From positions 78,101 through 142,100 of the forward strand of contig CACNWE010000005.1 of the NCBI GenBank assembly GCA_902623995.1: a stretch of 64,000 nucleotides of DNA, written 5' to 3'. The notes beneath the pieces are model-generated. The model searched no databases and was not told the DNA's origin. It was given only the letters and a program-made list of their open reading frames with translations. The stretch is from an uncultured SAR116 cluster alpha proteobacterium. Lineage in GTDB: Bacteria > Pseudomonadota > Alphaproteobacteria > Puniceispirillales > Marisalimonadaceae. Shown in pieces: positions 13,710-63,568 of the stretch (the stretch's first letter is position 1; each line of letters starts with the position of its first letter). The translations under genes and the position numbers were made by a program.

Positions 13710-13726
13710 AAAATTAAGTAATATAA

Positions 13727-14785
13727 TTAGTACTTTTTAGCTTTTAGATAAGCTCTTGATGACCAAATACTGTAGTCTTCTCTGAACTTGTTATAGCTAG
13801 CAGTAATTTCTTTGAAAAGAGGGTCAGATGCTGACTTCTCTTCAACAACAGCATCCCAAGCTCTCTTAAACTTAGAAATTTCTGAGTCAGGCCAAGTCAC
13901 AAATGTAACACCTTTTTTCTCAAGCTCTGCCATAGCAGGAACCTGCTTAGCATCGGATCTAACTAAAGCCCACCACATTGTGTCACGACATGCTGTGTTA
14001 ATAACTGCTTGTTGTGTCTTAGTTAGGCCACCCCATCCTTTAGTGCTCATTAGAAGCTCACCAATTGATGTTTGCTGATGCCAACCTGGAAAATAGTTAA
14101 ATTTTGCTAACTGATAGAAACCATAACTTAAGTCATGAGTAGGCATAGAAAATTCTGTTGCATCAATAACACCTTTTTCAAGTGCTGGATAAATATCACC
14201 ACCTGCTAATAATTGTGTTGATACTCCTAATTTACTCATAACCATAGCACCAAGACCGAAGAAACGCATTTTCATACCTTTCAACTCTTCAACATTGTTG
14301 ATTTTCTTTCTAAACCAACCTGATGTCTCAGGAGCGTGAGTTAGGCAGTTAAGAGCTTTAAGGCCATACTCGCCATAAATTCTATCTTTCAACTGCTGAC
14401 CTCCACCATATTCCATCCAACCATGGTACTCACTAGCACCTGGACCAAAAGGAACAGCTGTGAAGTAAGAAACTGCAGGGATTTTACCAGCATGGTATCC
14501 AGGTGTTGTATAACCTGCATCTACTGATCCATTCTTAACAGCATCCCAAACTTCTAATGAAGGTACAAGAGCGTTTGGCTCGTGAAATCTCAACTGAACG
14601 TCGCCACCTGAAATTGACTTAACTTTGTTGGAAAAATAAACAGCAGCTTCGCCATTAATTGCGACCTGGCTACCCCACGTGCTTTGCATTTTCCAACGTA
14701 GCTTGTCAGCATTTGCTGAAACAGCTACTAAACTAGTTGCAGCTAAAGCTACAGCGCCTACAAATAGGCTTGATTTGAATTTCAT
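13727..14785 (-). CDS. dctP: TRAP transporter substrate-binding protein (DctP, TakP-like)
   Basis: The 352-residue protein has a clear Sec signal (MKFKSS, hydrophobic core, cleavage after VSANA). The mature part matches DctP proteins of the TakP/2-oxoacid branch: WGSQ near the start, MKMRFFGLGA with the conserved Arg for the carboxylate, and GGDIYPALEKGVIDATEF. Family knowledge therefore favours a 2-oxo or hydroxy monocarboxylate ligand. It heads the operon and is followed by a terminator-like hairpin, so it is probably the most strongly expressed gene of the set. Confidence 0.93.
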   Translation of the reverse strand: MKFKSSLFVGAVALAATSLVAVSANADKLRWKMQSTWGSQVAINGEAAVYFSNKVKSISGGDVQLRFHEPNALVPSLEVWDAVKNGSVDAGYTTPGYHAGKIPAVSYFTAVPFGPGASEYHGWMEYGGGQQLKDRIYGEYGLKALNCLTHAPETSGWFRKKINNVEELKGMKMRFFGLGAMVMSKLGVSTQLLAGGDIYPALEKGVIDATEFSMPTHDLSYGFYQLAKFNYFPGWHQQTSIGELLMSTKGWGGLTKTQQAVINTACRDTMWWALVRSDAKQVPAMAELEKKGVTFVTWPDSEISKFKRAWDAVVEEKSASDPLFKEITASYNKFREDYSIWSSRAYLKAKKY

Positions 14786-15152
14786 GAAATTCCTCCCTAG
14801 TATTGTAATAGGCTGTAAAGAAATTATAAAAAATAATTCAATAAAGCCAAAATAAAAGAAACATTAGTTTCTCAACTGATTCATATCTTTCTTAATAATT
14901 TCAATAAAGGCAAGAAAAAACTTATAAAATTTCAATTATTTTTTTTTGCTTGACAGACTTTAGTTTTAATATTGCCTAAATTATGTTCTAATCTAATTAG
15001 AAAATATATTTTGATTAAATTTCAGACAAATTTAATTAAAAGTAACACTTGTTTTTTAGTTAATTAAAATTAAGAGAATTATACCTACAAGTTATTGATT
15101 ATTAATAATTTTTTATAAAAACTAAAATTTTGGTTGCAATTTTATGCTTGAT
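14786..15152. other. 367-nt intergenic region upstream of dctP
   Basis: No gene is visible on either strand. It should hold the leftward promoter of the TRAP operon and the 3' end of the uronate-dehydrogenase-like operon. It is strongly A+T-rich, and I could not single out an operator, RNA or terminator with confidence. Confidence 0.5.
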
Positions 15153-15962
15153 CTAATCATCAAAGTGACCTGAAGATGCAAAATAACCACCATGAGTTGT
15201 AACTAAAGAATCTGTAGAAGCAATAAATCCATCTTTTTTTTCAATTAAACTTCTGAATTCTTCTGCATTATCTTTTGGCTTATAACCAATGTGTTTGGCA
15301 TATTTGTTATCGATTAGCACCGAATCGTTATTTGATACTCCAAAAATTACAGAGTGTTGTACATTAGGACAATTTATACACGCAATAATAAGGCTCCTCA
15401 AATCATCATAACTTAACCATGTTGAGAGCATTCTATGATCTTTAGGCTCAGGAACACATGAGTAAATTCTTACTGATACGGTTTCTATTTTGTATTTGTC
15501 CCAATAATACTGAGCCAAGGACTCTCCAAAGACCTTTGACAAACCATAATTGCTATCTGCTCTAGGCATTACTTTACTATCTATAACTTCGGATCTTGGA
15601 TAAAAACCAACTGTATGAACTGAACTAGCCCAAATAACTCTTTTAATTTTATTCTTTCTGCATGCCTCATATAGATTATACATGCCTATAATGTTTGAAT
15701 TTAAAACATTATCCCAAGAACCTTCTATACTTTGACCACCCATATGAACTATGCAGTCTATATCTTTTGTTAATTTTAATATTGATTCTGTTGAGGCAAG
15801 ATCAGCAATTTCAACTTTCTCATTATGAAATTTTTTTTCTAAATTTACCTTGTCAGAAATTTTAAGCGAATCACATTCTTTAGATAATGTTTCCCTTAGT
15901 TGATTGCCTAAGGCCCCAGCTGCACCGGTTAAAAGAATATTTTTATATTTATGTTTAGACAA
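15153..15962 (-). CDS. NAD-dependent epimerase/dehydratase, uronate dehydrogenase-like
   Basis: The 269-residue extended-SDR protein has the NAD motif TGAAGALG near residue 13 and the catalytic YGLSK (Tyr-x-x-x-Lys) at about 140. The VIWASSVHTVGFYPRSE block and the MGGQSIEGSW segment resemble uronate dehydrogenase, which oxidises glucuronate or galacturonate to the aldarolactone. It is the last gene of a leftward operon whose first gene is an esterase-like hydrolase. Specificity is inferred from motif resemblance only. Confidence 0.72.
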   Translation of the reverse strand: MSKHKYKNILLTGAAGALGNQLRETLSKECDSLKISDKVNLEKKFHNEKVEIADLASTESILKLTKDIDCIVHMGGQSIEGSWDNVLNSNIIGMYNLYEACRKNKIKRVIWASSVHTVGFYPRSEVIDSKVMPRADSNYGLSKVFGESLAQYYWDKYKIETVSVRIYSCVPEPKDHRMLSTWLSYDDLRSLIIACINCPNVQHSVIFGVSNNDSVLIDNKYAKHIGYKPKDNAEEFRSLIEKKDGFIASTDSLVTTHGGYFASSGHFDD

Positions 15963-16856
15963 TTAATTAATCCCCTCATTAATTTGGTTTTTTATATATT
16001 CTCTCCAAAAAGTGAATAGCCCTGCTGAAATTACAATTAATGATCCTATGACTATTTCACTCTCCAATTTCTCATTAAACATTAATACACCAATTATAGA
16101 AACAAAAACTAACTGAAGATATGTAAATGGCTGTAATATTGAAGCCTCACTATGTTTGAAAGCAGTTATCATCAAAAAATGCCCTCCAGCTCCGAGCATG
16201 CAAACTAGTAACAAATATATCCAATGCGCGTTATCAACGAGTGTGTAAAAGAAAGGCCCTACAGAACCTAATATTACAAATCCTGTAATACCAGTATAAA
16301 AAAGACTAGTGTCAGGACTATCTTCACTAGAAACATATCTTGTTAAAATTTGATAAATAGCGAATGCAATTGCGCACCCCAATGCTATTAGAGATAAAGG
16401 GTCAAAGACTTTAGTACCTGGCCGTAGCATAATTAAGATACCCATAAAGCCAATCAATATTGCACTCCACCTTCTCCAACCTACTTTTTCTCCTAAAAAA
16501 ATTACTGATAATGCCGCAACTATTAGAGGACAACTTGCAAAAATAGCATGTGTCTCTATGAGACCAATTTTTAAAAAAAGATAGTGAGCAAAACACATCT
16601 CTACAGCAAGAATAGTACCTCTCAAAATTTGGATGAGTTTAAACTTACTTTTTGAAACAAGAATAACACTTTTGTTTCCTATACTGTTAATTGATATTAC
16701 AAATAGAAATAAAAACAAATATCGAAACATATTAATTGCTATTACATTATAATAATCTGTTAGGTATCTTGTAACCCCATCCATTACAGACAAACATGAT
16801 ACAGCAGCAATAATAAATAATATGCCCTTTGCATTAGAAGAAATATTTAGAGGCAT
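15963..16856 (-). CDS. EamA/DMT family transporter
   Basis: The protein has about ten TM helices in two EamA repeats, for example ILFIIAAVSCLSVMDGV, and HAIFASCPLIVAALSVIFLGEKVGWRRW at the end of repeat 1. I place the start at the ATG giving MPLNISSNAKG: this gives 297 residues, the family norm, and avoids a 95-nt overlap with the upstream gene that a longer reading frame (to 16973) would need. It is likely a metabolite exporter; its substrate is unknown. Confidence 0.83.
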   Translation of the reverse strand: MPLNISSNAKGILFIIAAVSCLSVMDGVTRYLTDYYNVIAINMFRYLFLFLFVISINSIGNKSVILVSKSKFKLIQILRGTILAVEMCFAHYLFLKIGLIETHAIFASCPLIVAALSVIFLGEKVGWRRWSAILIGFMGILIMLRPGTKVFDPLSLIALGCAIAFAIYQILTRYVSSEDSPDTSLFYTGITGFVILGSVGPFFYTLVDNAHWIYLLLVCMLGAGGHFLMITAFKHSEASILQPFTYLQLVFVSIIGVLMFNEKLESEIVIGSLIVISAGLFTFWREYIKNQINEGIN

Positions 16857-51626: not shown

Positions 51627-51703
51627 GCGCTCGTAGCTCAGCTGGATAGAGCACTAGACTACGAATCTAGGGGTCAGGGGTTCGAATCCTCTCGAGCGCA
51701 CCA
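51627..51703 (+). tRNA. tRNA-Arg (anticodon ACG)
   Basis: A complete 77-nt cloverleaf is present: acceptor GCGCTCG/CGAGCGC, D-arm GCTCAGCTGGATAGAGC, anticodon stem CTAGA/TCTAG around CTACGAA, T-arm GGGGTTCGAATCCTC, discriminator A and an encoded CCA. The ACG anticodon, read as ICG after deamination, decodes CGU, CGC and CGA. Its last 14 nt are part of the 57-bp inverted repeat that flanks the integrase gene, so the tRNA is the likely attachment site. Confidence 0.97.
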
Positions 51704-51746
51704 AAAACATCCGTGAACCATGGTTAAGTGTCTGAATTCCTTGAAT
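51690..51746 (+). repeat. left arm of a perfect 57-bp inverted repeat (putative att site)
   Basis: This arm begins in the tRNA-Arg T-arm, runs through its CCA end and continues 43 nt downstream. It is the exact reverse complement of 52941-52997, with no mismatch over 57 bp. The arm contains an internal palindrome AACCATGGTT. The pair encloses the integrase gene. Confidence 0.97.
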
Positions 51747-51779
51747 TAATTTTTAGGACCTCGGAGGCTGTAGACAAGG

Positions 51780-52934
51780 ATGTATACAAGATCACCACAT
51801 TATTTATATCAAAGAAATGGTATTTATTACTTTACAAGACAGGTGCCATCAGACTTAAAAACAAAATTTAATAAGAATAGAGTTGTAATTTCTCTAAGAA
51901 CATCGTCAAAACAAAAAGCTATAGAATCTGCTAATAAATTAACTGATCGTCTTGAAACTTATTGGAACACGCTAAGACTAGAATTGTTCCACACCAAAGA
52001 ATTAAAGCTTAGTTTTCTTGATAACCAAAAGTCAAAAACAGAAACAGTAAAACTAAGTAAAGCATTAGACACTTACATCAAGTTAAAAGGTAATGGTAAA
52101 GGTGAGCTTTTTCATCGAACTGCTTTAAGAAATATATCTTATACAATAGAATGCTTTGGTGACGTAGATATCACCTCCTTAAAGTCTATTGATGCTGCAA
52201 AGTATAGAGATTTCTTATTTAAAAAAGGATTATCAACTTCTTCTGTTAAACGCATATTTTCGTCTATCAACGCAGTGATCAACATCACTGTAAATGAATT
52301 TGGTATTAATATGAAAAATCCATTTTCAGGAACATTCATTCCAGACGACAATAAGAAAAAGATTAGACTCCCAATTCCAATTAAAAATATAAGAAATATT
52401 CAAACTGAATGTAAACACTTAGACGATGACAACAGGTGGTTAATTGCCTTAATTAGTGACACTGGGATGCGTTTATCAGAAGCAGTTGGTTTACTCACAA
52501 GTGATATAATATTAAGTACAGAAATACCTCATGTAAATATTATCAATCACCCATGGAGACGACTTAAGACCAAAGGGAGTAATAGAACTATTCCTCTTGT
52601 AGGAGTATCTCTATGGGCAGCAAAAAAAATTATAAGTGATAACAACCAATTTGCTTTCCCAAGGTACACAAATGATGAAAAGTGCAATGCTAACTCAGCT
52701 AGTAATGGACTTAACAAATGGCTGAAGCCAAGAATACCAGATGATTGCGTAATTCATTCTTTTAGACATAGCTTGAGAGATAGACTTAGAGCCGTCCAAT
52801 GTCCCTCTGATATTGTTGACGCGATTGGAGGTTGGTCAACAAAAACTGTAGGACAATCTTATGGATCTGGATATACGTTAGAAGTTAAATATGATTGGAT
52901 GAATAAGATTAAACTAAAGGTCAATGGTCCGTGA
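51780..52934 (+). CDS. tyrosine recombinase / site-specific integrase
   Basis: The 384-residue protein starts with a short beta-rich module (HYLYQRNGIYYFTRQVP) typical of phage and island integrases, then a core-binding SAM-like domain (LSKALDTYIKLK, SVKRIFSSINAVIN). The catalytic domain shows Arg in DTGMRLSEAVGL, Lys in KTKGSNRTIPL, HxxR in HSFRHSLRDR, and the tyrosine in VGQSYGSGY. It is intact. The start at 51780 is preceded by GGAGG about 12 nt upstream. Its final codons contain the repeat GGTCAATGGTCC found elsewhere in the island. It should act on the adjacent tRNA-Arg. Confidence 0.93.
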   Translation: MYTRSPHYLYQRNGIYYFTRQVPSDLKTKFNKNRVVISLRTSSKQKAIESANKLTDRLETYWNTLRLELFHTKELKLSFLDNQKSKTETVKLSKALDTYIKLKGNGKGELFHRTALRNISYTIECFGDVDITSLKSIDAAKYRDFLFKKGLSTSSVKRIFSSINAVINITVNEFGINMKNPFSGTFIPDDNKKKIRLPIPIKNIRNIQTECKHLDDDNRWLIALISDTGMRLSEAVGLLTSDIILSTEIPHVNIINHPWRRLKTKGSNRTIPLVGVSLWAAKKIISDNNQFAFPRYTNDEKCNANSASNGLNKWLKPRIPDDCVIHSFRHSLRDRLRAVQCPSDIVDAIGGWSTKTVGQSYGSGYTLEVKYDWMNKIKLKVNGP

Positions 52935-52940
52935 AACGTC

Positions 52941-52997
52941 ATTCAAGGAATTCAGACACTTAACCATGGTTCACGGATGTTTTTGGTGCGCTCGAGA
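52941..52997 (-). repeat. right arm of the 57-bp inverted repeat
   Basis: This stretch is the exact reverse complement of 51690-51746, including an inverted copy of the last 14 nt of tRNA-Arg. It begins 6 nt after the integrase stop codon. Outside the arms both flanks diverge at once, so the repeat boundaries are sharp. Confidence 0.97.
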
Positions 52998-53091
52998 TGA
53001 GGTGTGATGCCTAACCAGAGCAATGGTTTTATCTAAACTCCAACAATATCAATAGCTTAGCAAATACAGTGAGTCCGTCAATGATAAAAAG

Positions 53092-53120
53092 CTTGTCTAC
53101 AACCTTGTCTACAGTAGACA
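53092..53120. repeat. CTTGTCTACA direct repeats and palindrome (candidate integrase arm sites)
   Basis: Two direct copies of CTTGTCTACA (53092-53101 and 53104-53113) are followed by a perfect palindrome TGTCTACAGTAGACA (53106-53120). The reverse complement GTAGACAAG also occurs at 51770-51778, directly before the integrase ATG. Such short repeats near an integrase gene may be arm-type binding sites. Confidence 0.55.
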
Positions 53121-53121
53121 C

Positions 53122-53209
53122 AGTCCATGGTCCGGGGTTACTGCACCGTTTTCCTAGTCAACAATGGTCAATGGTCAGGGGGTGGTCTGCCCATTGACCT
53201 TAGTCCATG
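53122..53209. repeat. island intergenic repeat, copy A
   Basis: The stretch combines two blocks. 53136-53176 matches 63197-63237 at 37 of 41 positions, and 53185-53209 matches 56598-56622 at 24 of 25. GGTCAATGG (53166-53174) and CCATTGACC (53191-53199) can pair with each other, so the copy may form a hairpin. It lies between the integrase and the LysR gene. Confidence 0.85.
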
Positions 53210-53232
53210 TAAAATGGATGGTGCATAATTTT

Positions 53233-54123
53233 TCAACTAAGGTGTCTTTTTATTGCATCTATAAATAACTTTACTTTAATTGGAAGATATCTTCTATCAG
53301 GATAAACCGCATATACACTTTTTTCTGGGAATAATGTAAAATTAGGAAGTAAAGTTATTAATTCACCAGTTTTGATTTTATCTTTACAAAATACTTCTGG
53401 AAGCAAGCAATACCCAATACCTTCAATTGTACTTTTAAGCATTAAAGCTAATGTATTAGTCGTAAGAATAGGATTTGTATTAATTGTTATATCTTCTTTG
53501 GTATTTTTGTTTTTAAAACTTAAACTATATGGTGAACTAGAATTTTTATAATTTATTGAAGGCATTTTGATTAAATCCTCTGGGTTTGATGGCTCTCCAT
53601 ATTTATTTATAAATCCTGGACTTGCACAAATATATGCAGGAAAATCACAAATCCTCCTAGCAATTAAACCAGAGTCTTTTAATTTACCAATACGAATTAC
53701 CAGATCGTAACCTTCTTCTATTACATTTATAAACTTGTCATCAAAATCTACGTCTAATTTAACATCTGGATAATCTTTTGAGTAATCAGCTATTACATTT
53801 ACTAAAAATCTTTCTCCAAATGCCATAGGTGCATTAATTCGTAATTTTCCTGAAGGATGCTCAAGACCTTTAGTAATTTTTTTTATAACACCAGTAATTT
53901 CCTCTTCGCTCCTAGTGAGGGTTTCATATAACTGTTCTCCAGCGTCAGTTAATGTAACCACTCTTGTGGTTCTGTTAAATAGAACTAATTGTAAACGGTC
54001 TTCTAAAGCTTTTACTTGTTTACTTACCGCAGCCCCAGATATTCCAAGTTTATTAGCTGCTTTCGCAAAACTTTTATGTTTTGAAACCTCTATCATCACA
54101 TCAAAACTATTTTGAAAAACCAT
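53233..54123 (-). CDS. LysR family transcriptional regulator
   Basis: The 296-residue protein has an N-terminal winged HTH (SFAKAANKLGISGAAVSKQVKALE, then LFNRTTRVVTLTDAGE) and a periplasmic-binding-like effector domain (LRINAPMAFGERFL onward) typical of the branch of LysR regulators that includes AaeR/DsdC-like and quinone- or stress-related members. It is divergent from the DoxX-pirin-flavin reductase-YciI genes and is likely to control them. Confidence 0.92.
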   Translation of the reverse strand: MVFQNSFDVMIEVSKHKSFAKAANKLGISGAAVSKQVKALEDRLQLVLFNRTTRVVTLTDAGEQLYETLTRSEEEITGVIKKITKGLEHPSGKLRINAPMAFGERFLVNVIADYSKDYPDVKLDVDFDDKFINVIEEGYDLVIRIGKLKDSGLIARRICDFPAYICASPGFINKYGEPSNPEDLIKMPSINYKNSSSPYSLSFKNKNTKEDITINTNPILTTNTLALMLKSTIEGIGYCLLPEVFCKDKIKTGELITLLPNFTLFPEKSVYAVYPDRRYLPIKVKLFIDAIKRHLS

Positions 54124-54225
54124 GTATTATTAACCAATTGTTATTAATATAATAACTTTTAAACACATTAACATTTTATAATCAATAATATATTTACACC
54201 ATGTAAATTATTAATGGAGATATAA

Positions 54226-54669
54226 ATGTCAAATTCAAACTCAAAAACAAATGATCAATCATGGGGATTAAGTATTTTAAGAATTCATTTAGGAATAATT
54301 TTACTTGCCCATGGATGGCTAAAAATATCTGTTTTCACTATAGCTGGTACAGTCGGTTATTTTGCAAGTCTTGGGCTACCAAGTTTTTTTGCTTATTTAG
54401 TCATATTTGGCGAAATCATAGGTGGTATAACATTAATTTTAGGAATACAAACACGTCTTACAGCTTTGTTCTGTTTGCCAATCTTAATTGGAGCAACATT
54501 TGTTCACTTAAATAATGGTTGGCTTTTTTCAGCTGAGGGTGGCGGATGGGAATTTCCAGCATCTTTATCTATTATAGCACTTGCCACTATCTTTATGGGT
54601 TCTGGTAATAGAATAAATTTAAAGTTTAATCCTTTGAATACATTTCTTCCAACTCAACTTCAAAATTAA
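54226..54669 (+). CDS. DoxX family membrane protein
   Basis: The 147-residue protein has four TM helices and DoxX features: LRIHLGIILLAHGWLK, LPSFFAYLVIFGEIIGGITLILG and VHLNNGWLFSAEGGGWEFP. DoxX proteins are linked to thiol and quinone redox stress. Start ATG has GGAGAT just upstream. It leads the module downstream of the LysR gene, and a good terminator follows it. Confidence 0.9.
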   Translation: MSNSNSKTNDQSWGLSILRIHLGIILLAHGWLKISVFTIAGTVGYFASLGLPSFFAYLVIFGEIIGGITLILGIQTRLTALFCLPILIGATFVHLNNGWLFSAEGGGWEFPASLSIIALATIFMGSGNRINLKFNPLNTFLPTQLQN

Positions 54670-54685
54670 AGCTTAACTATCATTT

Positions 54686-54712
54686 GGGACAAATTAATTT
54701 TGTCCCTTTTAT
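54686..54712 (+). terminator. intrinsic terminator after doxX
   Basis: GGGACAAA (54686-54693) pairs with TTTGTCCC (54699-54706) across a 5-nt loop and is followed by TTTTATT. It separates the DoxX gene from the pirin gene, which therefore probably has its own promoter or depends on read-through. Confidence 0.8.
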
Positions 54713-54740
54713 TAAATTATAAATTAAAAGGAGATAAATT

Positions 54741-55445
54741 ATGATTACTCATCACAAATTTGAAAATCTTGGAGGAGCCAATCATGGATGGTTGAATGCT
54801 AAGCATCATTTTAGCTTTGCTAACTACTATGATCCACAAAAATTATGCCATGGAGAATTAATGGTAATTAATGATGATAGAATTGCCCCTAATACAGGTT
54901 TTGATACACATCCACATCAGAATATGGAGATTATCACGTACGTTCGCAAAGGAGCTATTACACACAAAGATAATAAAGGAAATCAAGGAAGGACTACTGC
55001 AGGAAATGTTCAAGTTATGAGTGCCGGAACCGGGATATATCATTCTGAGTTTAATTTGGAAAATGAAGAAACTAATATTTATCAGATTTGGATAAAGCCT
55101 AAAACAGTTGGTATTGAACCTGAATGGAATATGGCTGAATTCCCCAAAGAACCAGTTGAAGATTCTTTGCAGCTATTAGTTTCAGGAGACAAAACAGCTC
55201 CCCTAAATATAAACCAAGATGCCAGAATTTATGCTGGCAGATTGAACAAGGGTATAAAAGTAAAACACAATGTAATTGGTAAAGCTTATGTTCTAATATC
55301 CGAAGGAAATATTGACGTTAACGGTAATAAAACTGAAAAAGGAGATGGTCTTTCTATTTCAGATGAAACATCTTTAGAATTTGAAGCATTAAATGATGCT
55401 GAGTTACTCATAATTGAAGTGCCTGGTAAAGAAAATGCACGTTAA
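54741..55445 (+). CDS. pirin family protein (quercetinase/YhhW-like)
   Basis: The 234-residue bicupin has the pirin metal site: FDTHPHQNMEIITYV (two His), GTGIYHSEFN (His) and the following Glu. LGGANHGWLNAKHHFSFA is the usual N-terminus. YhhW-type pirins oxidise flavonols in vitro, but their natural role is stress-linked and unclear. AAAAGGAGA precedes the ATG. Confidence 0.92.
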   Translation: MITHHKFENLGGANHGWLNAKHHFSFANYYDPQKLCHGELMVINDDRIAPNTGFDTHPHQNMEIITYVRKGAITHKDNKGNQGRTTAGNVQVMSAGTGIYHSEFNLENEETNIYQIWIKPKTVGIEPEWNMAEFPKEPVEDSLQLLVSGDKTAPLNINQDARIYAGRLNKGIKVKHNVIGKAYVLISEGNIDVNGNKTEKGDGLSISDETSLEFEALNDAELLIIEVPGKENAR

Positions 55446-55523
55446 CTCTTAAGTACTATCTGGATGAGTTTTTCTTATTAAATAACTATCTTTTAAACCT
55501 ATTTTTACTAATGGAGATAAAAA

Positions 55524-56075
55524 ATGAAAAAAAATATATTAATTATTGGCGGAAGCCTGCGAGCAAAGTCTTTTAACAAATATCTGGCATCAAATTTAAT
55601 TGAAATTGGAAAGGAAAAATTTAATTTTGAAATATTTTCTAATTTTAATCTCCTGCCCCATTATAACACAGATGATCACAACCAAGATAATTGGCCAAAA
55701 ACCTTATTAGAATTAGAAGAAAAGATAAAAAAAGCCGATGGAGTTATATTTGTAACACCTGAATATAATTTTTCAGTACCAGGTTACTTAAAAAACTGTA
55801 TTGATTGGATTTCTAGATTGCCCAATCAACCTCTAGACAGGAAACCAGTTTGTATCCAGTCTGCTTCTTTAGGACCTCTTGGAGGAGCGAGAGTGCAGTA
55901 TCACTTAAGACAAATACTAGTATTCTTAAATGCAAAGGTAATGAATAAAAATGAAATATTTGTTACGTTTGCAAAGCAGAAATTTGATGAAAATTCTGGT
56001 AAATTGACCGATGCAATAACAATTGATTTTATAAGAAAACAGCTTGATGCTTTTTATATTTTTATAGATGAATAA
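55524..56075 (+). CDS. NADPH-dependent FMN reductase / quinone reductase
   Basis: The 183-residue flavodoxin-like protein has IIGGSLRAKSFNKYLA (FMN phosphate site), VIFVTPEYNFSVPGYLKNCIDW and SASLGPLGGARVQYHL. These match the NAD(P)H-dependent FMN/quinone reductase (ChrR/YieF-like) family. Reducing quinones by two electrons fits the redox-stress theme of the neighbouring DoxX, pirin and YciI genes. Confidence 0.92.
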   Translation: MKKNILIIGGSLRAKSFNKYLASNLIEIGKEKFNFEIFSNFNLLPHYNTDDHNQDNWPKTLLELEEKIKKADGVIFVTPEYNFSVPGYLKNCIDWISRLPNQPLDRKPVCIQSASLGPLGGARVQYHLRQILVFLNAKVMNKNEIFVTFAKQKFDENSGKLTDAITIDFIRKQLDAFYIFIDE

Positions 56076-56092
56076 TTTAATAGGAGTAAAAA

Positions 56093-56485
56093 ATGAATGA
56101 ACCAAAGATCACAAAACAAGATGTTTTAAATGCTTCAAGCGAAATGCTTAACAAGGATTTATATGTAGTATTTACAAAACCTACAAATGGAATGATTCCT
56201 GTTATGGAAAATCTAGAAGAACATCTTAAATTCCAAGTTTCGCTTGAAAAAAAAGGAATAATGTTTGGCGCTGGACCTTTTTGGGAAGATAATGAAATTG
56301 ACTGGAATGGAGAAGGAATGGTTATCATAAGAGCAAATTCTATTGAACATGCCAAAGAGATAGCCAGTTCCGATCCTATGCACAAGTCAGGCGCAAGAAG
56401 CTTTACAGTCAGGCCATGGTTACTTAACGAGGGCAACATTCAAGTAACTCTGGATTACTCAACAGGGAAATTTAAGTTGAAATAA
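56093..56485 (+). CDS. YciI family protein
   Basis: The 130-residue protein has a ferredoxin-like fold pattern; HLKFQVSLEKKGIMFGAGPF is the YciI-like His-containing segment, and MVIIRANSIEHAKEIASSDPMHKSGARSF follows (DP, the expected acidic turn). YciI proteins are thought to be small dehalogenase- or dehydratase-like enzymes. It starts 17 nt after the flavin reductase gene and ends the module. Confidence 0.85.
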   Translation: MNEPKITKQDVLNASSEMLNKDLYVVFTKPTNGMIPVMENLEEHLKFQVSLEKKGIMFGAGPFWEDNEIDWNGEGMVIIRANSIEHAKEIASSDPMHKSGARSFTVRPWLLNEGNIQVTLDYSTGKFKLK

Positions 56486-56597
56486 TTTAAATTTTTTGAA
56501 TTATCATATGTAATGGAAATTAATTTCTGTATTTTTTAATATTTTCTAGGACATATTAAAATGTAACAAATACTAATCTCCCCAGGTTCTTTGGTTA

Positions 56598-56650
56598 GTC
56601 TGCCCATTGACCGTAGTCCATGGAACACTGACCAGGGTTCATTGATGGGT
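56598..56650. repeat. island intergenic repeat, copy B
   Basis: Block 56598-56622 matches copy A with one mismatch in 25 nt (CCATTGACC and TAGTCCATG). It is followed by a partial reverse match ending in TTCATTGATGGG. It lies in the 249-nt gap between the YciI gene and the DUF1289 gene; I see no gene in that gap. Confidence 0.75.
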
Positions 56651-56734
56651 TATTGGAGTTTGTAATTAGTAGTTTTGTTTAAAGTCTTTAATGATTTCAG
56701 TAACTTTTAAAAAAAATTATGTGTATTTACATTA

Positions 56735-56917
56735 TCACATTTGATCTTTAACTATCTTCATTCTTTTATTTAAAACTTTTTGTAAATTTTTAATATCATA
56801 GGGTTTTAAACTTTTCCATTTTCTAGTTTCACCTTTAGTACGACCACATCCCAAACACCATCCATTAGGACCAATAAATTTACAAACGTCTATGCAAGGA
56901 CTTTTAGCTTTTTTCAT
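56735..56917 (-). CDS. DUF1289 small cysteine-rich protein
   Basis: The 60-residue protein has the DUF1289 pattern: PCIDVCKFIGPNGWCLGCGRTKGE, with four conserved Cys (CxxxC...CxxC), then a WKSL-type aromatic. The family is probably metal-binding; function unknown. It is the last gene of the leftward ABC importer run, starting 38 nt after the permease stop. Confidence 0.88.
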   Translation of the reverse strand: MKKAKSPCIDVCKFIGPNGWCLGCGRTKGETRKWKSLKPYDIKNLQKVLNKRMKIVKDQM

Positions 56918-56954
56918 TTTACTCTACTAGACAAAATTATAGTTTAATCATGTG

Positions 56955-58001
56955 TTATTTTCTTCTCAAAAGCCATACAAAAAAAATTCCTCCTACTAAT
57001 CCAGTAACGATTCCAATTGGCATATCCTCTGGAGGCATTATTGTTCGAGCAGCAATATCTGCCCAAAGTAAAAATATTGATCCCAGCAATGCTGAAAGAG
57101 GTAAAACTCGAAAATAATCTCCTCCAACGAACATTCTTACTATATGAGGAACCATTAAACCAACAAATCCGATTATACCAGAAAATGCTACCATAACACC
57201 AGTTATGAGCGCGCATACTACAAAAATAATAAAACGAAATTTAGTTACATTAATTCCAAGAGTTGAAGCTGTCTCATCACCAACAGTCATGGCATTTAAT
57301 ACTCTTGCTTGACTAAAAAGCCAAAGTCCACAAATTAATAAAACTGTAAGGGGATAAATTAGTTGGTTCCATTGAGCTAAACCTAAGCCACCTAACATCC
57401 AAAAAACAACTGTATGAGTGGCTTTTGGATCACCAAGGAAAATCAAAATATTGGCACATGACATGATTATAAAAGATACTGCCACGCCAGCTAAAACTAA
57501 ACGATCTGCACTTGTAGAACTAGTAAATCGTGAGACCATTAATACTATAAATGTTGCAAAAAGAGCACCTAGGAAGGCTAACAAAGGTACTGTTAACAAA
57601 CCAATAAATAAACCTGTGTGTAATAAAGCTAAAATTGCTCCAAAAGCACCACCAGAAGAAATGCCTAACAAATGTGGATCAGCAAGTAGATTACGGGTTA
57701 CTGATTGCAAACTAGCCCCAACAATTGCAAGTCCTGAGCCAACCATTATTGCTAATAAAGTGCGAGGGAATCGAATGTCCCAGACAATTGCCTCTCTTCC
57801 TTTTGACCAAGTCTGTTCAACAAGATCTGGTGAGAATTTATTTAATATAATTCCCCAAACAGTACTGGTATGGACAGAAACAGCGCCTACAGATATTCCA
57901 ATTGATAATGATATAATCAATAAAATTGATCCCAAACAGAAAAATGAAATTACTTTTCTGTTTGGTTTCATCATTTCATAATTTACTACTTTTGAAGCCA
58001 A
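56955..58001 (-). CDS. FecCD/BtuC-type ABC transporter permease
   Basis: The 348-residue protein has about ten TM helices. FPRTLLAIMVGSGLAIVGASLQ and NPLADPxxLG-like NLLADPHLLGISSGG are the FecCD signature, and GFVGLMVPHIVRMFVGGDY is the coupling-helix region. The family imports Fe-siderophores, heme, cobalamin and, in some Zur regulons, zinc complexes. The Zur-box context here favours zinc. Confidence 0.93.
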   Translation of the reverse strand: MASKVVNYEMMKPNRKVISFFCLGSILLIISLSIGISVGAVSVHTSTVWGIILNKFSPDLVEQTWSKGREAIVWDIRFPRTLLAIMVGSGLAIVGASLQSVTRNLLADPHLLGISSGGAFGAILALLHTGLFIGLLTVPLLAFLGALFATFIVLMVSRFTSSTSADRLVLAGVAVSFIIMSCANILIFLGDPKATHTVVFWMLGGLGLAQWNQLIYPLTVLLICGLWLFSQARVLNAMTVGDETASTLGINVTKFRFIIFVVCALITGVMVAFSGIIGFVGLMVPHIVRMFVGGDYFRVLPLSALLGSIFLLWADIAARTIMPPEDMPIGIVTGLVGGIFFVWLLRRK

Positions 58002-58006
58002 AACAT

Positions 58007-58957
58007 CTATTGCCTGAATGCCTTAGCTAATTTTTTGATTGCTTTAATGTTACGTGGACCAGGTGTGGCTTCCACATATTCCAATGTTACAAAGCGATCA
58101 TTTTTGACTGCATCTATATTTGCGAAGGCTGGATTAGACATCATGAATTTTCTTTTTTGTTCTGCTGTAACTTTTCCATAATTAACAATAACAACTACCT
58201 CAGGATTTCTATCAATTACTTCTTCCCAAGTTACTGTGCCCCAACTTTTTTGAAAATCATTCATTATGTTGATTCCTCCTGCAGCTTCAATAAGAGCGGT
58301 TGGCATAGCATAGCGTCCAGCTGTAAAAGGAGTGTCTTCCCCACTGTCATAAACAAAAACTTTTTTTGCGGATGTGGTTTTAAGTTTTTGAGTAAATTTA
58401 TTAAGATCTGATCGATATGCATCAACTAATTTTTTAGCACGATTTTCAATTTGAAATATACGACCCAAATTTAAAAGATCATTATACATATCATCCATAC
58501 TAACTTTTTTCTTAGTCATTATGTGGATACAACTTTCAGTTAATTCATAAACATTAATTCCAAATGGTTTTAATGTTTCTGGTGTAACTTCTCCGCCAAC
58601 CTTCATACCATAATTCCAGCCAGCAAAGAAAAAATCCGCATCTGCTCCAACTAAAACTTCTTTTGTTGGGTACTTTGGTGATAATTCTGGTAATTGCTTA
58701 ACTCCTAAACGCATTTCTTCATCTAATGTTTTCCAACCAGATATACCCGTATATCCAACCATCTTGTCAGAGAGACCAAGAACAAGCATCATTTCTGTTA
58801 AATTAACATCATTAGATATTGCCCTTTGGGGAGGACTGTCAAAAGTCACAGTTCGATTACAACTATCTACTGAAACTTTACTTAAAGCCAAACTATTAAA
58901 ACTTATTATTAGAAAAAAACTCAAAATAAATATTTTTAATTTAAAAGCTAAATTCAT
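58007..58957 (-). CDS. ABC transporter substrate-binding protein (BtuF/FecB type)
   Basis: The 316-residue protein has a Sec signal (KLKIFILSFFLIISFNSLALS) and then two globular lobes linked by a helix, as in class III binding proteins. DSCNRTVTFDSPPQRAI and NDVNLTEMMLVLGL open the mature part; PGPRNIKAI closes it. It lacks the His-rich loop of ZnuA-type zinc binders, so it more likely binds a metal chelate than a bare ion. It precedes the permease gene by 5 nt. Confidence 0.88.
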   Translation of the reverse strand: MNLAFKLKIFILSFFLIISFNSLALSKVSVDSCNRTVTFDSPPQRAISNDVNLTEMMLVLGLSDKMVGYTGISGWKTLDEEMRLGVKQLPELSPKYPTKEVLVGADADFFFAGWNYGMKVGGEVTPETLKPFGINVYELTESCIHIMTKKKVSMDDMYNDLLNLGRIFQIENRAKKLVDAYRSDLNKFTQKLKTTSAKKVFVYDSGEDTPFTAGRYAMPTALIEAAGGINIMNDFQKSWGTVTWEEVIDRNPEVVVIVNYGKVTAEQKRKFMMSNPAFANIDAVKNDRFVTLEYVEATPGPRNIKAIKKLAKAFRQ

Positions 58958-58967
58958 AATTTTCTCC

Positions 58968-59753
58968 TTAATGTAAATGAAATGTTATTTGTTTGGAGTT
59001 ACTTGGTGTCAACAATTCGTGACACGCTTTCACCCTAAAAGCTTCTGAGATGTTACTTTCAGAAAGAATTAAATTTGGTTTACCAAAACCTAAAGCGCAA
59101 CCATCCTTCAATAGAAGGATTTCATCGCAATTACTTCTAGCCATATTCAGGTCATGAAGAGATGTAATAACAGTAATTGATAAATCTTTTAAAAGATTTA
59201 AGATTTCAAGTTGTTGACGAATATCTAAATGATTAGTTGGTTCGTCTAAAATTAATATATCAGGTTCTTGAGCTAACGCTCTAGCAATCATTACACGCTG
59301 ACGTTCACCACCAGATAAAGTATTTAAGTGTCGATTTTCGAATTTATTTAAAGAAAGACGATCAATTGATGATTGCACAATTTTTTTATCATTTTTACTG
59401 TTTGAATTACTTAACCATTTAGAATAAGGAGTACGCCCTAAAGTAACAATTTCTCTCACAGTTAATGAAAAATCTGAGAAATTTTCTTGTAAAACTGTTG
59501 CAACAGAACAAGCTACCTGACGAGAAGTCAATTTCCATATATCAATACCATTAATTTTAACTTTTCCTGTTGTTGGCTTATAATAACGATACAACAACCT
59601 CAATAGAGTTGATTTTCCTGCACCATTTGGCCCTACTACGCCAAGTATTTTTCTTGGGCTTAATTTAAAACTTAAAGGATAGAGAATTTTCTGTTTTTTT
59701 TGTTTAACAGACCAACTTACATCATCAACAGTAATACCCAAACCTTTTTGCAT
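58968..59753 (-). CDS. ABC transporter ATP-binding protein (FecE/BtuD type)
   Basis: The 261-residue ATPase has Walker A GPNGAGKSTLLR, the Q-loop, signature LSGGERQRVMIARAL, Walker B ILILDEPTNHLD and the switch His. It drives the FecCD-type permease. It follows the DUF1636 gene by 4 nt and precedes the binding protein by 10 nt, so the four genes form one operon starting at the Zur operators. Confidence 0.95.
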   Translation of the reverse strand: MQKGLGITVDDVSWSVKQKKQKILYPLSFKLSPRKILGVVGPNGAGKSTLLRLLYRYYKPTTGKVKINGIDIWKLTSRQVACSVATVLQENFSDFSLTVREIVTLGRTPYSKWLSNSNSKNDKKIVQSSIDRLSLNKFENRHLNTLSGGERQRVMIARALAQEPDILILDEPTNHLDIRQQLEILNLLKDLSITVITSLHDLNMARSNCDEILLLKDGCALGFGKPNLILSESNISEAFRVKACHELLTPSNSKQITFHLH

Positions 59754-59757
59754 TTTC

Positions 59758-60171
59758 TTAACTTTTATATAGATATGTTACTAGATCGGAGTTACTTACG
59801 ATAGAAGGAAGCCTTCCAAGTATGTTAGATCTGAAAAGTTGGGGTCTTTCTCCTCTTCTTAAAAACCCATTAGGAGAGTTTGAATACCTTCTTATTAAAT
59901 CAATTAATTCACTCGTATATTCTTGATTATCAGGGATTATATCACCAAAAACATAGGTAAAATTATTTTCTGATGTTAGAGAAATTACGCATGGTCTTTT
60001 ACACTGACTCATACAAGCGACTGATCTCACTTTTAAATTTAGTATTTTATTATTTTTTATTTTATTAAGAAAATTATCTAAAAATCTTTGTCCACCACGA
60101 CTTTTTAGATCATCCTCTTTGCCATCTCGGCATCTGTTACAGATTGATAATATTGTTTTATTCGTATTCAT
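59758..60171 (-). CDS. DUF1636 metal-binding protein
   Basis: The 137-residue protein matches DUF1636: an N-terminal CNRCRDG, a central CMSQCKRPCVISL, and the late FLRRGERPQLFRSNILGRLP. The cysteine set (C..C and C...C...C) resembles thioredoxin-like [2Fe-2S] ferredoxin or zinc sites. It is the first gene of the leftward operon, directly next to the Zur operators. Its function is unknown; the context suggests a role in zinc or zinc-chelate handling. Confidence 0.87.
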   Translation of the reverse strand: MNTNKTILSICNRCRDGKEDDLKSRGGQRFLDNFLNKIKNNKILNLKVRSVACMSQCKRPCVISLTSENNFTYVFGDIIPDNQEYTSELIDLIRRYSNSPNGFLRRGERPQLFRSNILGRLPSIVSNSDLVTYLYKS

Positions 60172-60181
60172 GATTTAAATT

Positions 60182-60199
60182 ATGTTATGTTATAACATT
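60182..60199. promoter_or_regulatory. Zur-type operator 1
   Basis: The 18-mer ATGTTATGTTATAACATT contains the palindrome ATGTTATAACAT and matches the proteobacterial Zur box core TGTTATAACA. It starts 11 nt from the DUF1636 start codon and probably blocks that promoter when zinc is sufficient. Confidence 0.85.
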
Positions 60200-60233
60200 A
60201 CATTTATTATTTAAAAGTCCGGCTGTCAATAAA

Positions 60234-60251
60234 ATGTTATGTTATAACATT
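60234..60251. promoter_or_regulatory. Zur-type operator 2
   Basis: This is an exact second copy of the 18-mer at 60182, 52 bp away and in the same orientation. It lies 61 nt before the regulator gene, where it would control the rightward operon. Two copies in a divergent promoter fit dual, autoregulated control. Confidence 0.85.
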
Positions 60252-60311
60252 GCAATATTAAAAACGAGTTGATATAATATCTTTAGAGGTATCAAAATTG
60301 AGGGTCAATTG

Positions 60312-60707
60312 ATGTCAGTTACAAACAAACGTTTAACACACTCGGATAGAGTTTTTAATTTTTTGAAAAAACAAAAACAACCATTAACAGCCTACGAAAT
60401 TTTAGATCTTTTAAGATCAGAAGGTATCACAGCTGCTACAACTGTTTACAGAGCATTAGACAAATTACATAAAGATGGACTTATTCATCGCATTGAGTCA
60501 TTAAATGCTTGGACAAAATGTTGTGGATCTCATAAAAACAAAATCCCAGTGTTTGAAATCTGTAATGATTGTGGCGATGTTAAAGAACATCTAGATCAGA
60601 AATTAACAGATAATATCAAAAATCTCTCTGATAGAACAGGATTTAAAGCCAACAATCCTGTTTTCGAAATACATGGCCTATGTGGCAATTGCTCATCAAA
60701 TATATAA
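60312..60707 (+). CDS. zur: Fur family transcriptional regulator, Zur-like
   Basis: The 131-residue protein has the Fur winged helix (QPLTAYEILDLLRSEGITAATTVYRALDKL) and the dimerisation domain with structural cysteines (FEICNDCGD and GLCGNC) and metal His. Zur rather than Fur or PerR is favoured by TTVYRALDKL, the downstream COG0523 gene and the two flanking Zur boxes. I chose ATG 60312, preceded by GAGGG 8 nt upstream; a TTG one codon earlier also exists. Confidence 0.9.
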   Translation: MSVTNKRLTHSDRVFNFLKKQKQPLTAYEILDLLRSEGITAATTVYRALDKLHKDGLIHRIESLNAWTKCCGSHKNKIPVFEICNDCGDVKEHLDQKLTDNIKNLSDRTGFKANNPVFEIHGLCGNCSSNI

Positions 60708-60723
60708 TTAAAAGGATAAAGAC

Positions 60724-61698
60724 ATGAATAATACTTCTGAACAAGTCCCAGTTACAGTTTTGACTGGATTTCTAGGAGCCGGAAAAACAACTCTTCTTAA
60801 CAGAATTCTAACAGAACAACACGGTAAGCGCTATGCAGTAATCGTAAATGAATTTGGAGAACAAGGTATTGACAATGATCTTGTCGTTGATGCTGATGAA
60901 GAAGTTTTTGAAATGAATAATGGATGTATTTGCTGCACTGTTAGGGGTGATTTAATTCGCATTCTAGGTGGACTTATGAAAAGGGCTGATAAACTAGATG
61001 CTATTATTGTGGAAACAACAGGACTGGCAGATCCTGCTCCAGTTGCGCAAACTTTTTTTGTTGACCAGGATGTATCTGATAAAACTAAATTGGATGCAAT
61101 AGTCACCGTTGCAGACGCAGTGCATCTTAGTAATCAGCTTGGTGAACACCATGAAGCTGAAGAACAGATAGCATTCGCTGACATTGTTTTACTTAATAAA
61201 ATTGATCTTGTAGATGACAACTCGATTGATAATGTTAAAGCAAGAATTAAAAAAATTAATCCATATGCAAAAATAGTCAAAACTAATCGTTGTGATATTC
61301 CACTTAATGAAGTTTTAGGACTTAATGCATTTAGTTTAGATCGTGTTTTAGAAGTTGAACCTGATTTCTTAGATTCTGATCATGACCACGAGCACGATGA
61401 TGATGTAACAAGCATGTCATTTGTCTCTGAAACACCCCTAGATATGGATAAATTTCAAACTTGGTTTGGTAATTTATTGCAAACACACGGACAAGATATT
61501 CTGAGGTCAAAGGGCATATTAAGTTTTGAAGGTAAAGATGACCGTTATGTTTTTCAAGGTGTCCATATGCTCATGGATGCATCTCCAATGGGCACTTGGC
61601 CTGAAGGAAAAGAGCGCAATTCAAGAGTAGTTTTTATAGGTCGAAATCTTGAAAACATGGGTCTTGATGAAGGTTTTGAGGGATGTAAATTGAATTAA
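60724..61698 (+). CDS. COG0523 (CobW/ZigA-like) GTP-binding metallochaperone
   Basis: The 324-residue protein has Walker A GFLGAGKTTLLN, the metal-binding GCICCTV (CxCC), G4 NKID and a His/Asp-rich stretch (DHDHEHDDD) before the CobW C-terminal domain. COG0523 GTPases under Zur control deliver zinc to key enzymes in zinc starvation. It starts 16 nt after zur, so it is in the same operon. Confidence 0.95.
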   Translation: MNNTSEQVPVTVLTGFLGAGKTTLLNRILTEQHGKRYAVIVNEFGEQGIDNDLVVDADEEVFEMNNGCICCTVRGDLIRILGGLMKRADKLDAIIVETTGLADPAPVAQTFFVDQDVSDKTKLDAIVTVADAVHLSNQLGEHHEAEEQIAFADIVLLNKIDLVDDNSIDNVKARIKKINPYAKIVKTNRCDIPLNEVLGLNAFSLDRVLEVEPDFLDSDHDHEHDDDVTSMSFVSETPLDMDKFQTWFGNLLQTHGQDILRSKGILSFEGKDDRYVFQGVHMLMDASPMGTWPEGKERNSRVVFIGRNLENMGLDEGFEGCKLN

Positions 61699-61730
61699 AT
61701 AACTATAATTTACTTCAATAATAATTCAAA

Positions 61731-62783
61731 ATGTCAGATAGAGAAAAATTTTTAGAGCAAAAAATATCTTACTTAGAGCCTGAAGAAACAGAACTAGAAG
61801 GTAGAGGTAAGGAATTAGAAATAAATGCTCCAGTTACTGGTGCAGTTACAATTCCTGAGGCTGTTGTTGCAGGATTTGGTGACGGTACTGTAAGATTTTT
61901 TAGGTCAGAAGAAACACCAAAAATAATTGATGCGCATCATGGTGTGGTACTCTGTATAGCCACAAATGGTAGTGAGGTGTTTACTGGTGGTGATGATGGT
62001 CGATTTTTACAAATATCTCCTGATGGAACAATAACTGAAATTGCTAATTTTGGAACTCGTTGGGTTGATACAGTAGCGGCAACAAAAGATAATATGGTTT
62101 GTTCATCAGGTAAAAATGCTTATTTGTGGTCTAGTGGTAATACAAAAGAAAAAATTTTAGAACATACAAGCACTATAGGAGGTATGGCATTTGATAGAAA
62201 TGGAAAACGTTTGGCAGTTGCCAGCTATGGAGGGGTTACTCTTTGGGAGCAAGGTAACAGACGATGGAAATCTTCACGGCTTGTATGGAAAGGATCTCAC
62301 AGCAAAGTAAGTTTTAGCCCTGATGGAAAATATATCGTGACTACCATGCAAGAAAGTGAACTTCATGGATGGCGTATACGAGATAAAGTAGATTTAGCTA
62401 TGAGAGGGTATCCAGCAAAGATAAAAAGTTTTGCATGGGTAGGTGACATTCCTCACCTTGCTACTGCTGGTGACCATCAAGCAATTTGTTGGCCGTTTGA
62501 TGGTAAAGACGGACCACTTGGTAGAGAACCAGTTTGTGTTGCTGATTGTGGTAAAAAAATCTCAACTTTTATAGAACCCTTAACAGGCGAAAAGGCTATT
62601 TTTGTGGGCTTTAATGATGGTACAGTTTTATTATCAGAGGTAGATGATAGAAAAAATCCATTTGTTGTTAGAAATCCTAAAGGTTATGAAATATCTGCAA
62701 TATCACTTTCATCAGATCGTTCTTATATTTTGATAGGCGACTTAGGTGGTAATATATTGTGGTCTCCATTATGGGCAAATTAA
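61731..62783 (+). CDS. WD40 repeat protein of the Zur operon
   Basis: The 350-residue protein is a beta-propeller with several WD-like blades, for example FGDGTVRFFRSEE, GRFLQISPDGT, VSFSPDGKYIVTT and GFNDGTVLLSEVD, and no signal peptide or TM helix. Such proteins are frequently found next to Zur-linked COG0523 genes in alphaproteobacteria, which suggests a scaffold or partner for the GTPase or its client. Catalysis is not expected. It follows the COG0523 gene by 32 nt. Confidence 0.87.
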   Translation: MSDREKFLEQKISYLEPEETELEGRGKELEINAPVTGAVTIPEAVVAGFGDGTVRFFRSEETPKIIDAHHGVVLCIATNGSEVFTGGDDGRFLQISPDGTITEIANFGTRWVDTVAATKDNMVCSSGKNAYLWSSGNTKEKILEHTSTIGGMAFDRNGKRLAVASYGGVTLWEQGNRRWKSSRLVWKGSHSKVSFSPDGKYIVTTMQESELHGWRIRDKVDLAMRGYPAKIKSFAWVGDIPHLATAGDHQAICWPFDGKDGPLGREPVCVADCGKKISTFIEPLTGEKAIFVGFNDGTVLLSEVDDRKNPFVVRNPKGYEISAISLSSDRSYILIGDLGGNILWSPLWAN

Positions 62784-62787
62784 AAAA

Positions 62788-63045
62788 ATGAATGACATGT
62801 TTAATCAAAAAAAAGCAAAACCTGAAAATATTAGATATTTAAAAGATATAATCTCTAAAAAATTAAACTTACCTGAAACCACAATATTAAGTATTGCTGA
62901 ACTTAGCTGTCACGAGCCTGGTTGTCCTCCAAAAGAGACAGTAATTACCACTAATGCAAATGATGGAACAAGTAAAACTTGGAAAATTGAAAAACCAATA
63001 GATCAGATTGATAATTTTGATGTTGAAAATTTATTGGAGAGTTGA
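62788..63045 (+). CDS. small CxxxxC protein (possible metal-binding)
   Basis: The 85-residue protein has one notable motif, SCHEPGCPPKETVI (two Cys and one His), which could bind zinc. It starts 4 nt after the WD40 stop, so it belongs to the zur operon. I chose ATG 62788; an earlier ATG would overlap the WD40 gene. I recognise no established function, though similar small proteins accompany COG0523 genes. Confidence 0.7.
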   Translation: MNDMFNQKKAKPENIRYLKDIISKKLNLPETTILSIAELSCHEPGCPPKETVITTNANDGTSKTWKIEKPIDQIDNFDVENLLES

Positions 63046-63568
63046 TTTTAACATGAGAAGAGAAAATTATTTTTAATAAATTTAATTAATGAAACTGCAT
63101 TACATATACCTAATATTAATATTCGTTAAACTAAATATGTGAATAATATAGATAAAAACCCAGTAACTCTTTTCAGTATTTTAGATTTCAAACTGAGGTT
63201 GCTGCACCCTTTTACTAATCAACAATGGTCAATGGTCCATGGTTTTATTTTAAGTAATGTAAATATATTAAACTAAGTTTACCATATCTTTTAAACTTAC
63301 ATTATTAAACCCCAACCAAGTGAAGAAACCAAAACTTGAATAAAGGTTTCAGTGGTAATGCCAATCAGTACTGAAATTAGGACGTTAGGTATTGGAAATA
63401 ATGTCATAATAAAACTTATCATAAGTCTTTTTTTTTGTGAATTTTTGAAATGACGTAAAATAGAGAGGTAGTTAATCTGACATAATTCAATAATCTATAA
63501 ATGTAATAAAGATACTGAAATAATTTGAAAATTAACTAAAATCTCCATTAAGGTGTGGTGTGAGATTA
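63046..63568. other. 523-nt non-coding stretch with repeat copy C
   Basis: No convincing gene is visible. The stretch holds repeat copy C at 63197-63245 and is otherwise A+T-rich. It is the largest gene-free gap in the window and follows the zur operon. Confidence 0.6.
63197..63245. repeat. island intergenic repeat, copy C
   Basis: 63197-63237 matches copy A (53136-53176) at 37 of 41 positions, including TCAACAATGGTCAATGGTC, and ends in GGTCCATGG, an arrangement also seen in copies A and B. It lies downstream of the zinc module. Confidence 0.85.

Follow-up and report, generated by a model that had tools for sequence, protein, structure and literature searches.

In an uncultured SAR116-cluster alphaproteobacterium, a tyrosine recombinase gene (int) next to a tRNA-Arg gene is enclosed by a perfect inverted repeat, and equivalent repeats are found around related genes in many other genomes. 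This repeat is probably a second, inverted attachment site of an integrative element that targets tRNA genes, and the excised circle of such an element would carry two opposed attP sites recombined by the integrase (Int). The inverted repeat around int is a conserved trait of the DUF6538-type recombinase family, extending beyond the window, i.e., the whole stretch of 64,000 nucleotides analyzed here.

The integrase locus of the window

The two arms of the repeat (51690-51746 and 52941-52997) are exact reverse complements over 57 of 57 nt. With mismatches allowed, the inverted match covers 51687-51753 and 52934-53000 (67 nt, 94%), and BLAST inside the window gave the inverted pair an E value of 9e-25, much too low to be due to chance. 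The left arm, on the forward strand, is composed of a core (51690-51703) and a P region (51704-51746), and relatives are laid out alike. The core corresponds to the final 14 nt, CCA among them, of a tRNA-Arg(ACG) gene located by ARAGORN at 51627-51703 (forward strand), which is the target gene and forms attL together with the core. The int gene (51780-52934, forward strand, 384 aa) lies entirely between the arms, with its stop codon 6 nt away from the right arm. The latter (52941-52997, reverse strand) consists of P' (52941-52983) and core' (52984-52997) and would be the inverted second attachment site (attP2). Its Q flank (52998-53133, forward strand) is kept in L062 and L064 and is seen as Q'-core in L181. 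The sequence-only reading had described a perfect 57-bp inverted repeat around the whole recombinase gene, with arms that carry the last 14 nt of the tRNA including CCA and would leave tRNA-Arg intact in either orientation, and all of this holds.

A putative arm-type integrase site, CTGTAGACAAGG, is located directly before the int start (51768-51779, forward strand). It is not within the inverted arm and has an inverted partner in Q, where putative arm-type sites are found at 53092-53114. In 12 of the 20 family rows examined, short repeats near the int start have inverted counterparts in Q, at a depth of about 100 nt, and both are putative arm-type sites to which Int may bind. The protein has the DUF6538 and Phage_integrase domains of Pfam (for the latter, PF00589, 49.7 bits against a cut-off of 27.1), and residues R231, H326, R329, and Y361, which we take to be the catalytic residues of tyrosine recombinases, were unchanged across 16 aligned sequences. 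The window Int also extends 7 residues (52911-52934) beyond the stop position of its near relatives (L002-L005), ending before the inverted arm, by either the loss of a stop codon or a sequencing error.

The five closest relatives have an Int 97 to 98% identical; four belong to the SAR116 cluster, and the other is "Alpha proteobacterium SCGC AAA536-K22." At the site of the window element, the relatives compared carry other DNA, and no empty site could be aligned. A direct-repeat attR and an inverted partner of Q were found neither in the window nor in its assembly, and there is no second Q within the 64 kb, the sequence ending at 64000. The same tRNA-Arg also hosts a different kind of element, with a 66-nt tRNA-derived direct repeat (L063, 7921-9924; L173, L176, L179, and L181). 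These direct repeats were set aside, as they appear to belong to another element type.

Inverted repeats and complete elements in the integrase family

The locus set comprised the window, L031-L050, L060-L142, and L012, L016, L018, L020, L022, L025, L026, L029, and L030. Matches shorter than 331 residues and those with identical int DNA were dropped, giving 105 rows, among which near-duplicates (anonymous genomes versus named contigs) may remain. Loci with at least 110 nt upstream and at least 600 nt downstream were taken as evaluable (n = 74), right arms were sought up to 5 kb, and inverted repeats had to span at least 30 nt and begin more than 40 nt upstream of int. Such a repeat was found in 56 of the 74 evaluable loci (42 of 51 with an upstream tRNA and 14 of 23 without). 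As controls, 23 further tyrosine recombinases from the same order, five of them adjacent to a tRNA, were searched identically, and none had it. The remaining 18 loci include three (L088, L107, and L029) with an inverted match of 30 to 38 nt that starts no more than 40 nt from int, four with only 17 to 20 nt, and 11 with none. A tRNA is located directly upstream of int in 71 of the 105 loci, 32 have no tRNA on either side, and 13 different anticodons are used. Of the 54 loci with both a tRNA and the repeat, 43 have an arm that starts 14 to 18 nt inside the tRNA, and the other 11 have starts between about 33 nt outside it and 140 nt inside it. The right arm is found at the int stop or from 250 nt to 4 kb past it.

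Relatives of int were present in 47 of the 61 genomes of the first search and also in other Alphaproteobacteria. Among 398 genomes sampled across the phylum, five, including the window's own, gave a strong Int match, and searches elsewhere gave four loci in viral contigs, two weak matches in phages, and one in plasmids. Among loci outside the counts, the inverted repeat is present in L266, L267, and L272 and absent from L268, L269, and L271, and L265 was too short; two viral loci with partial matches, equally outside the counts, gave a weak 32-nt hit at 84% (L140) and none (L142).

Many of the surveyed loci come from single-cell genomes or MAGs, which carry a risk of inverted chimeras, and in 10 of 105 loci a contig end is found within 120 nt of the int stop. 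An assembly or MDA artifact was considered as a general cause and ruled out, because the same anatomy appears in single-contig genomes and in isolates. The duplicated arm, for which an assembly artifact had been named as the refuting outcome, recurs in independent genomes, three single-contig ones and named isolates among them. Single-contig genomes and named isolates supply fifteen inverted repeats (82 to 100% identical), and isolates with the repeat include BAL199, IMCC14465, Ruegeria conchae TW15, and Maritalea mobilis DP3N28-3.

The complete anatomy can be read in ten elements, in the order tRNA, core, P, int, P', core', Q, cargo, Q', core, and chromosome, i.e., the right arm is the whole attP reversed. 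In tandem arrays, the left side reads Q'-core-P in place of tRNA-core-P. Both P/P' and Q/Q' are inverted pairs in these ten, mostly near-identical. A Q partner was found in 13 of the 72 loci with an inverted repeat, and L039, which is under the repeat cut-off, brings these to 14. In ten of them (L036, L037, L039, L040, L043, L046, L082, L102, L108, and L126), the partner has the core at the far end, and in the other four (L042, L085, L106, and L117), it is present without ending in the core. As for the rest of the 72, 18 had too little sequence and 41, the window among them, showed no Q partner in the sequence available, which was at least 8 kb for 15 of these 41.

The clearest case is the megaplasmid of Ruegeria sp. 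TM1040, with a tRNA-Phe, P arms of 85 bp, and Q arms of 1,148 bp, both 100% identical. Each Q arm contains a BRO-family gene, with one common protein accession, and type I restriction-modification genes are located between the arms. Here attR is 12.8 kb away from attL, so that short contigs can miss the far end, and at some loci the far end has likely been lost. In BAL199 (L108), attL reads tRNA-Gly, core, and P; the inverted site, Q', core, and P; and the far end, Q' and core followed by other DNA, with Q and Q' 100% identical over 618 bp. Tandem arrays and degenerate copies were seen as well (L036, L039, and L064), and in L036 the orientation of the core alternates.

A direct-repeat attR was seen at the far end in ten relatives and in TM1040, and on this layout the inverted copy is a predicted third, extra site beside the direct-repeat pair of attL and attR. 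The window had been read as a departure from islands flanked by direct repeats; the layout does differ, but relatives also have direct-repeat attL/attR at the far end of the island. Another candidate, an insertion sequence of 1.3 kb with the arms as its terminal inverted repeats, is ruled out, since complete relatives reach a far direct-repeat attR. When pairs of elements were compared (61 loci), 26 were alike in both P and Q, one in P only, and none in Q only, a joint similarity that would be expected for the two arms of a single attP. The only pair with high P and low Q (L046/L072) looks like a register error, and among the pairs compared there was no sign of P and Q being swapped between dissimilar elements. 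Genes found between int and the inverted site may run towards int, from or near P' (L085, 11127-11540; L043, 5171-7404; L044, about 2900-3880), and one of them opens with residues of the extended Int ORF (MCAWRVDQM) because P' carries the int start region.

The core of the inverted site follows the target. In 49 of 51 testable loci, it holds the final 14 nt of its own tRNA, and the two exceptions (L111 and L030) are truncated by the end of the available sequence; L033, L071, and L018, in which the tRNA end is outside the arm, were left out of this count. A quick tree of Int (70 proteins, 19 of 66 inner branches open) requires at least 38 changes of tRNA. In 13 pairs with P and Q at least 80% similar and different tRNAs, which overlap and include only loci agreeing with their own tRNA, 3 to 8 of the 14 core positions differ. 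Such agreement despite so many tRNA changes makes the inverted site look rewritten along with the real one and not a relic, and we infer from the sequences that the two must be kept alike either by selection or by exchange between them. As the inverted site changed too when lineages moved to a new tRNA, it is probably used by Int. The first element of L046 (reverse strand, 61-2176) is an exception, as its core is Arg-type at attL but Phe-type at both the inverted site and attR; it is possibly a chimera or the result of a recent switch of target.

The constancy of this core and the presence of one inverted copy 3' of int, at 56 of 74 loci but at none of the 23 controls, speak against P' and Q' being passive by-products, i.e., functionless leftovers of nested or head-to-head insertions that gene conversion keeps alike. 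Tandem arrays and degenerate copies do exist (L036, L039, and L064), the Q partner was not found at most loci, and the R repeats described below point to heavy cargo shuffling, all of which would fit such an origin, but the match between the inverted core and the neighboring tRNA, seen at 49 of 51 loci, makes it very improbable.

Cargo and the R repeat

Past Q, the DNA of the window is made up of two multi-gene units that are found elsewhere in the genus and are delimited by whole or half copies of R, an 85-bp dispersed repeat with a hairpin (DNA fold z-score of -2.46). The whole copy, detected with nhmmer as were the half copies, is at the outer end of Q (53134-53218, forward strand). It is followed by unit 1 (53233-56583), coding for a LysR regulator, DoxX, pirin, an FMN reductase, and a YCII-related protein; a half copy of R (56584-56631, forward strand, model positions 39-86); unit 2 (56632-63194), coding for an FecCD permease, a periplasmic binding protein, an ABC ATPase, DUF1636, a Fur-family regulator, a CobW GTPase, and a WD40 protein; and another half copy (63195-63242, forward strand, model positions 2-49). 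Unit 1 is also present elsewhere in G003, G014, and G020 with 92 to 99% DNA identity, and unit 2 in G014, G019, and G063 with near 95%.

In total, 43 whole or half copies of R were found in 20 of the scanned loci (the window, L062, and L201-L214 among those with R). All 23 neighboring pairs are co-oriented and spaced 1.3 to 11 kb, with multi-gene units in between, and the half copies are split near model positions 39-49. The series looks like a cassette-type array. There are also R series without a DUF6538-type int, which start about 105 to 120 nt past the 3' end of a tRNA-Ser or tRNA-Met (L204, 12928-13208; L205, 18365-18645; L201, 2711-2988). In G014, a different integrase is located beside tRNA-Ser(GCT), upstream on the contig of unit 1, and unit 1 is preceded there by a leader that elsewhere sits between tRNA-Ser and its first R. 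The cargo of the window may have been acquired through a second, R-based shuffling process.

We compared 41 cargo ORFs from 11 elements with Pfam. Matches included transporters, a methyltransferase, a thymidine kinase, a glycosyltransferase, a fatty acid hydroxylase, a cupin, an acetyltransferase, an inverse autotransporter, and a transposase, among others, and many ORFs were without a family. No relaxase domain was found in these 41 ORFs. Replication domains were found in only one of the 11 elements, the complete element L043, whose cargo loop (13139-15481) contains AlpA, Prim-Pol/PriCT_1, and AAA_25 genes, a set that resembles a satellite-type replication module. In L064, a relative of the window, a D5_N domain of the primase-helicase type is found beyond attP2 (15192-16418). 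A protein of about 110 aa is repeated in the cargo of L082 (11579-11917 and 12450-12791), L085 (12628-12969), and L126 (11263-11586 and 15582-15908), and the one copy searched matched DUF6974.

Integrase orientation and the possible role of the second site

With convergent tRNAs sought up to 3 kb, int points away from the tRNA (proximal) at 71 loci and towards it (distal) at a single clear one. The latter (L044/L086) has a tRNA-Arg(CCG), another gene, and int facing the tRNA, with the core at both ends. In L097, there is a predicted selenocysteine tRNA downstream, convergent with int, and the sequence opens with an adapter-like stretch, so that its orientation is not judgeable. In the window and its five nearest relatives, int is proximal in six of six, counting L063 with a truncated tRNA body, as it is in all 22 tRNA-adjacent loci with the inverted arm no more than 5 nt from the int start.

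These counts bear directly on the proposal, made in the sequence-only reading, that Int turns over the 1.3-kb segment that encodes it, switching int expression with respect to the tRNA promoter. The arms look indeed like recombination sites, int is flanked by two inverted copies of them, and in L044/L086 int is distal with another gene proximal to the tRNA. However, the flipped int that was to be looked for in related genomes appeared in none of the six loci of the window group, and the family ratio of 71 to 1 has a binomial P of ~3e-20 (rows not being independent). Besides, in the ten complete elements the repeat continues past core', with Q/Q' enclosing the cargo, an extension for which a local switch has no need. 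A free on/off switch of int is not supported, and we regard the self-inverting cassette as unlikely. The inversion of the segment between the two copies, considered more generally, may take place, but none was observed, and the orientation ratio is difficult to reconcile with unrestricted inversion or with both sites being freely used. The orientation may be fixed by the mechanism, through extra one-sided arm sites or a single-stranded intermediate; otherwise, the opposite state must have been lost. Rather than the 1.3-kb segment, the relevant unit is probably the complete element, whose circle would carry two inverted attP.

Under the reading that we prefer, a second attachment site in an integrative element, recombination of attL with attR would excise a circle with two identical attP (Q'-core-P) in opposite orientation flanking int. 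This circle would have two unique loops, one with int and the other with the cargo, split by inverted repeats that bear recombinase sites, and Int would recombine the two inverted attP. Sequence would pass between the sites through the action of Int or through homologous recombination along the long repeat, with the circle offering the best opportunity, and the circle could invert, integrate via either site, and possibly amplify. Amplification, exchange of the cargo loop, and a folded single-stranded attP are candidate roles of the second site.

The first of these roles has a model in the yeast 2-micron plasmid (Flp/FRT), a circle with recombinase-site-bearing inverted repeats of 599 bp each (PMC3147054). 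The predicted circle resembles it in having two unique regions between long, site-bearing inverted repeats. In contrast, the elements described here are bacterial, integrate at tRNAs, and have a biased int orientation when integrated, their circle is predicted from sequence, and inversion and amplification are hypothetical. By analogy, inversion driven by Int during replication could convert the forks to a double rolling circle and amplify the cargo before its re-entry into a tRNA, a bacterial counterpart that we put forward as a tentative and rather doubtful possibility. The Prim-Pol primase, AAA_25 ATPase, and AlpA of the L043 cargo loop indicate that at least one element has genes of replication type.

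A simple inversion model is weakest in accounting for the orientation bias, which keeps alive the single-stranded alternative, in which the inverted attP copies would pair to form a double-stranded site for insertion into the tRNA by Int, so that the orientation would be fixed. Its precedent is the phage CTXphi, in which two inverted attP copies pair on single-stranded DNA and both persist in the integrated element (PMC4246890). The elements share with attP1/attP2 of CTXphi the retention of two inverted copies after integration, and the identity of core, P, and Q would allow pairing. Unlike CTXphi, which according to the same text relies on the host XerC/D with 90 bp between the sites, they have their own integrase and loops of kilobases (at least 1.2 kb between the sites), and a single-stranded stage is hypothetical for them. 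The 41 scanned cargo ORFs included no relaxase, and no phage structural gene was noticed there, while the Q arms far exceed the length needed for a recombination site. All in all, the folded attP appears improbable.

Like other tRNA-targeted islands with a tyrosine recombinase, the elements have int adjoining the tRNA, an attL with the tRNA 3' end, and, in complete relatives, a far direct-repeat attR; they differ in the third, inverted attP 3' of int and, when complete, in the cargo enclosed between long inverted repeats. Tycheposons, as described in the available part of PMC10872708, have a tRNA border, a tyrosine recombinase, and cargo, with sizes of 4 to 200 kb. They are alike in border, recombinase, and metabolic cargo in planktonic bacteria, and many loci of the int family would fit the description; the difference, compared by description only, is that the one given in that part of PMC10872708 has no inverted att copy. 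Elements of the SE, GInt, RIT, and Tn554 groups also have tyrosine recombinases, and the SE joint and the Tn554 ends are imperfect inverted repeats (PMC10214605), but three or four conserved genes are found there, as opposed to tRNA targeting and a single recombinase per int loop here. In the window and in 11 elements, each int loop contained one recombinase of the DUF6538-type family, unlike the multiple recombinases of RIT, SE, GInt, and Tn554.

Inverted attP pairs (CTXphi) and site-bearing inverted repeats on a circle (2-micron) were already known separately. In the literature searched (titles and openings of abstracts, few subscription journals), no bacterial element was described that targets tRNA genes and has an inverted attP at the int end. 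Integrative elements are usually described with one attP, which becomes attL and attR. The elements found here are probably to be interpreted as integrative elements with a conserved twin attP, whose anatomy is seen in the relatives and whose recombination we infer. A conserved third, inverted attP, if true, would couple excision, inversion, reintegration, and perhaps amplification, outside the standard model. The megaplasmid of Ruegeria sp. TM1040 provides a named, fully sequenced test case, and the sequence signature can be searched for elsewhere. The finding bears on the swapping of metabolic genes in streamlined marine bacteria.
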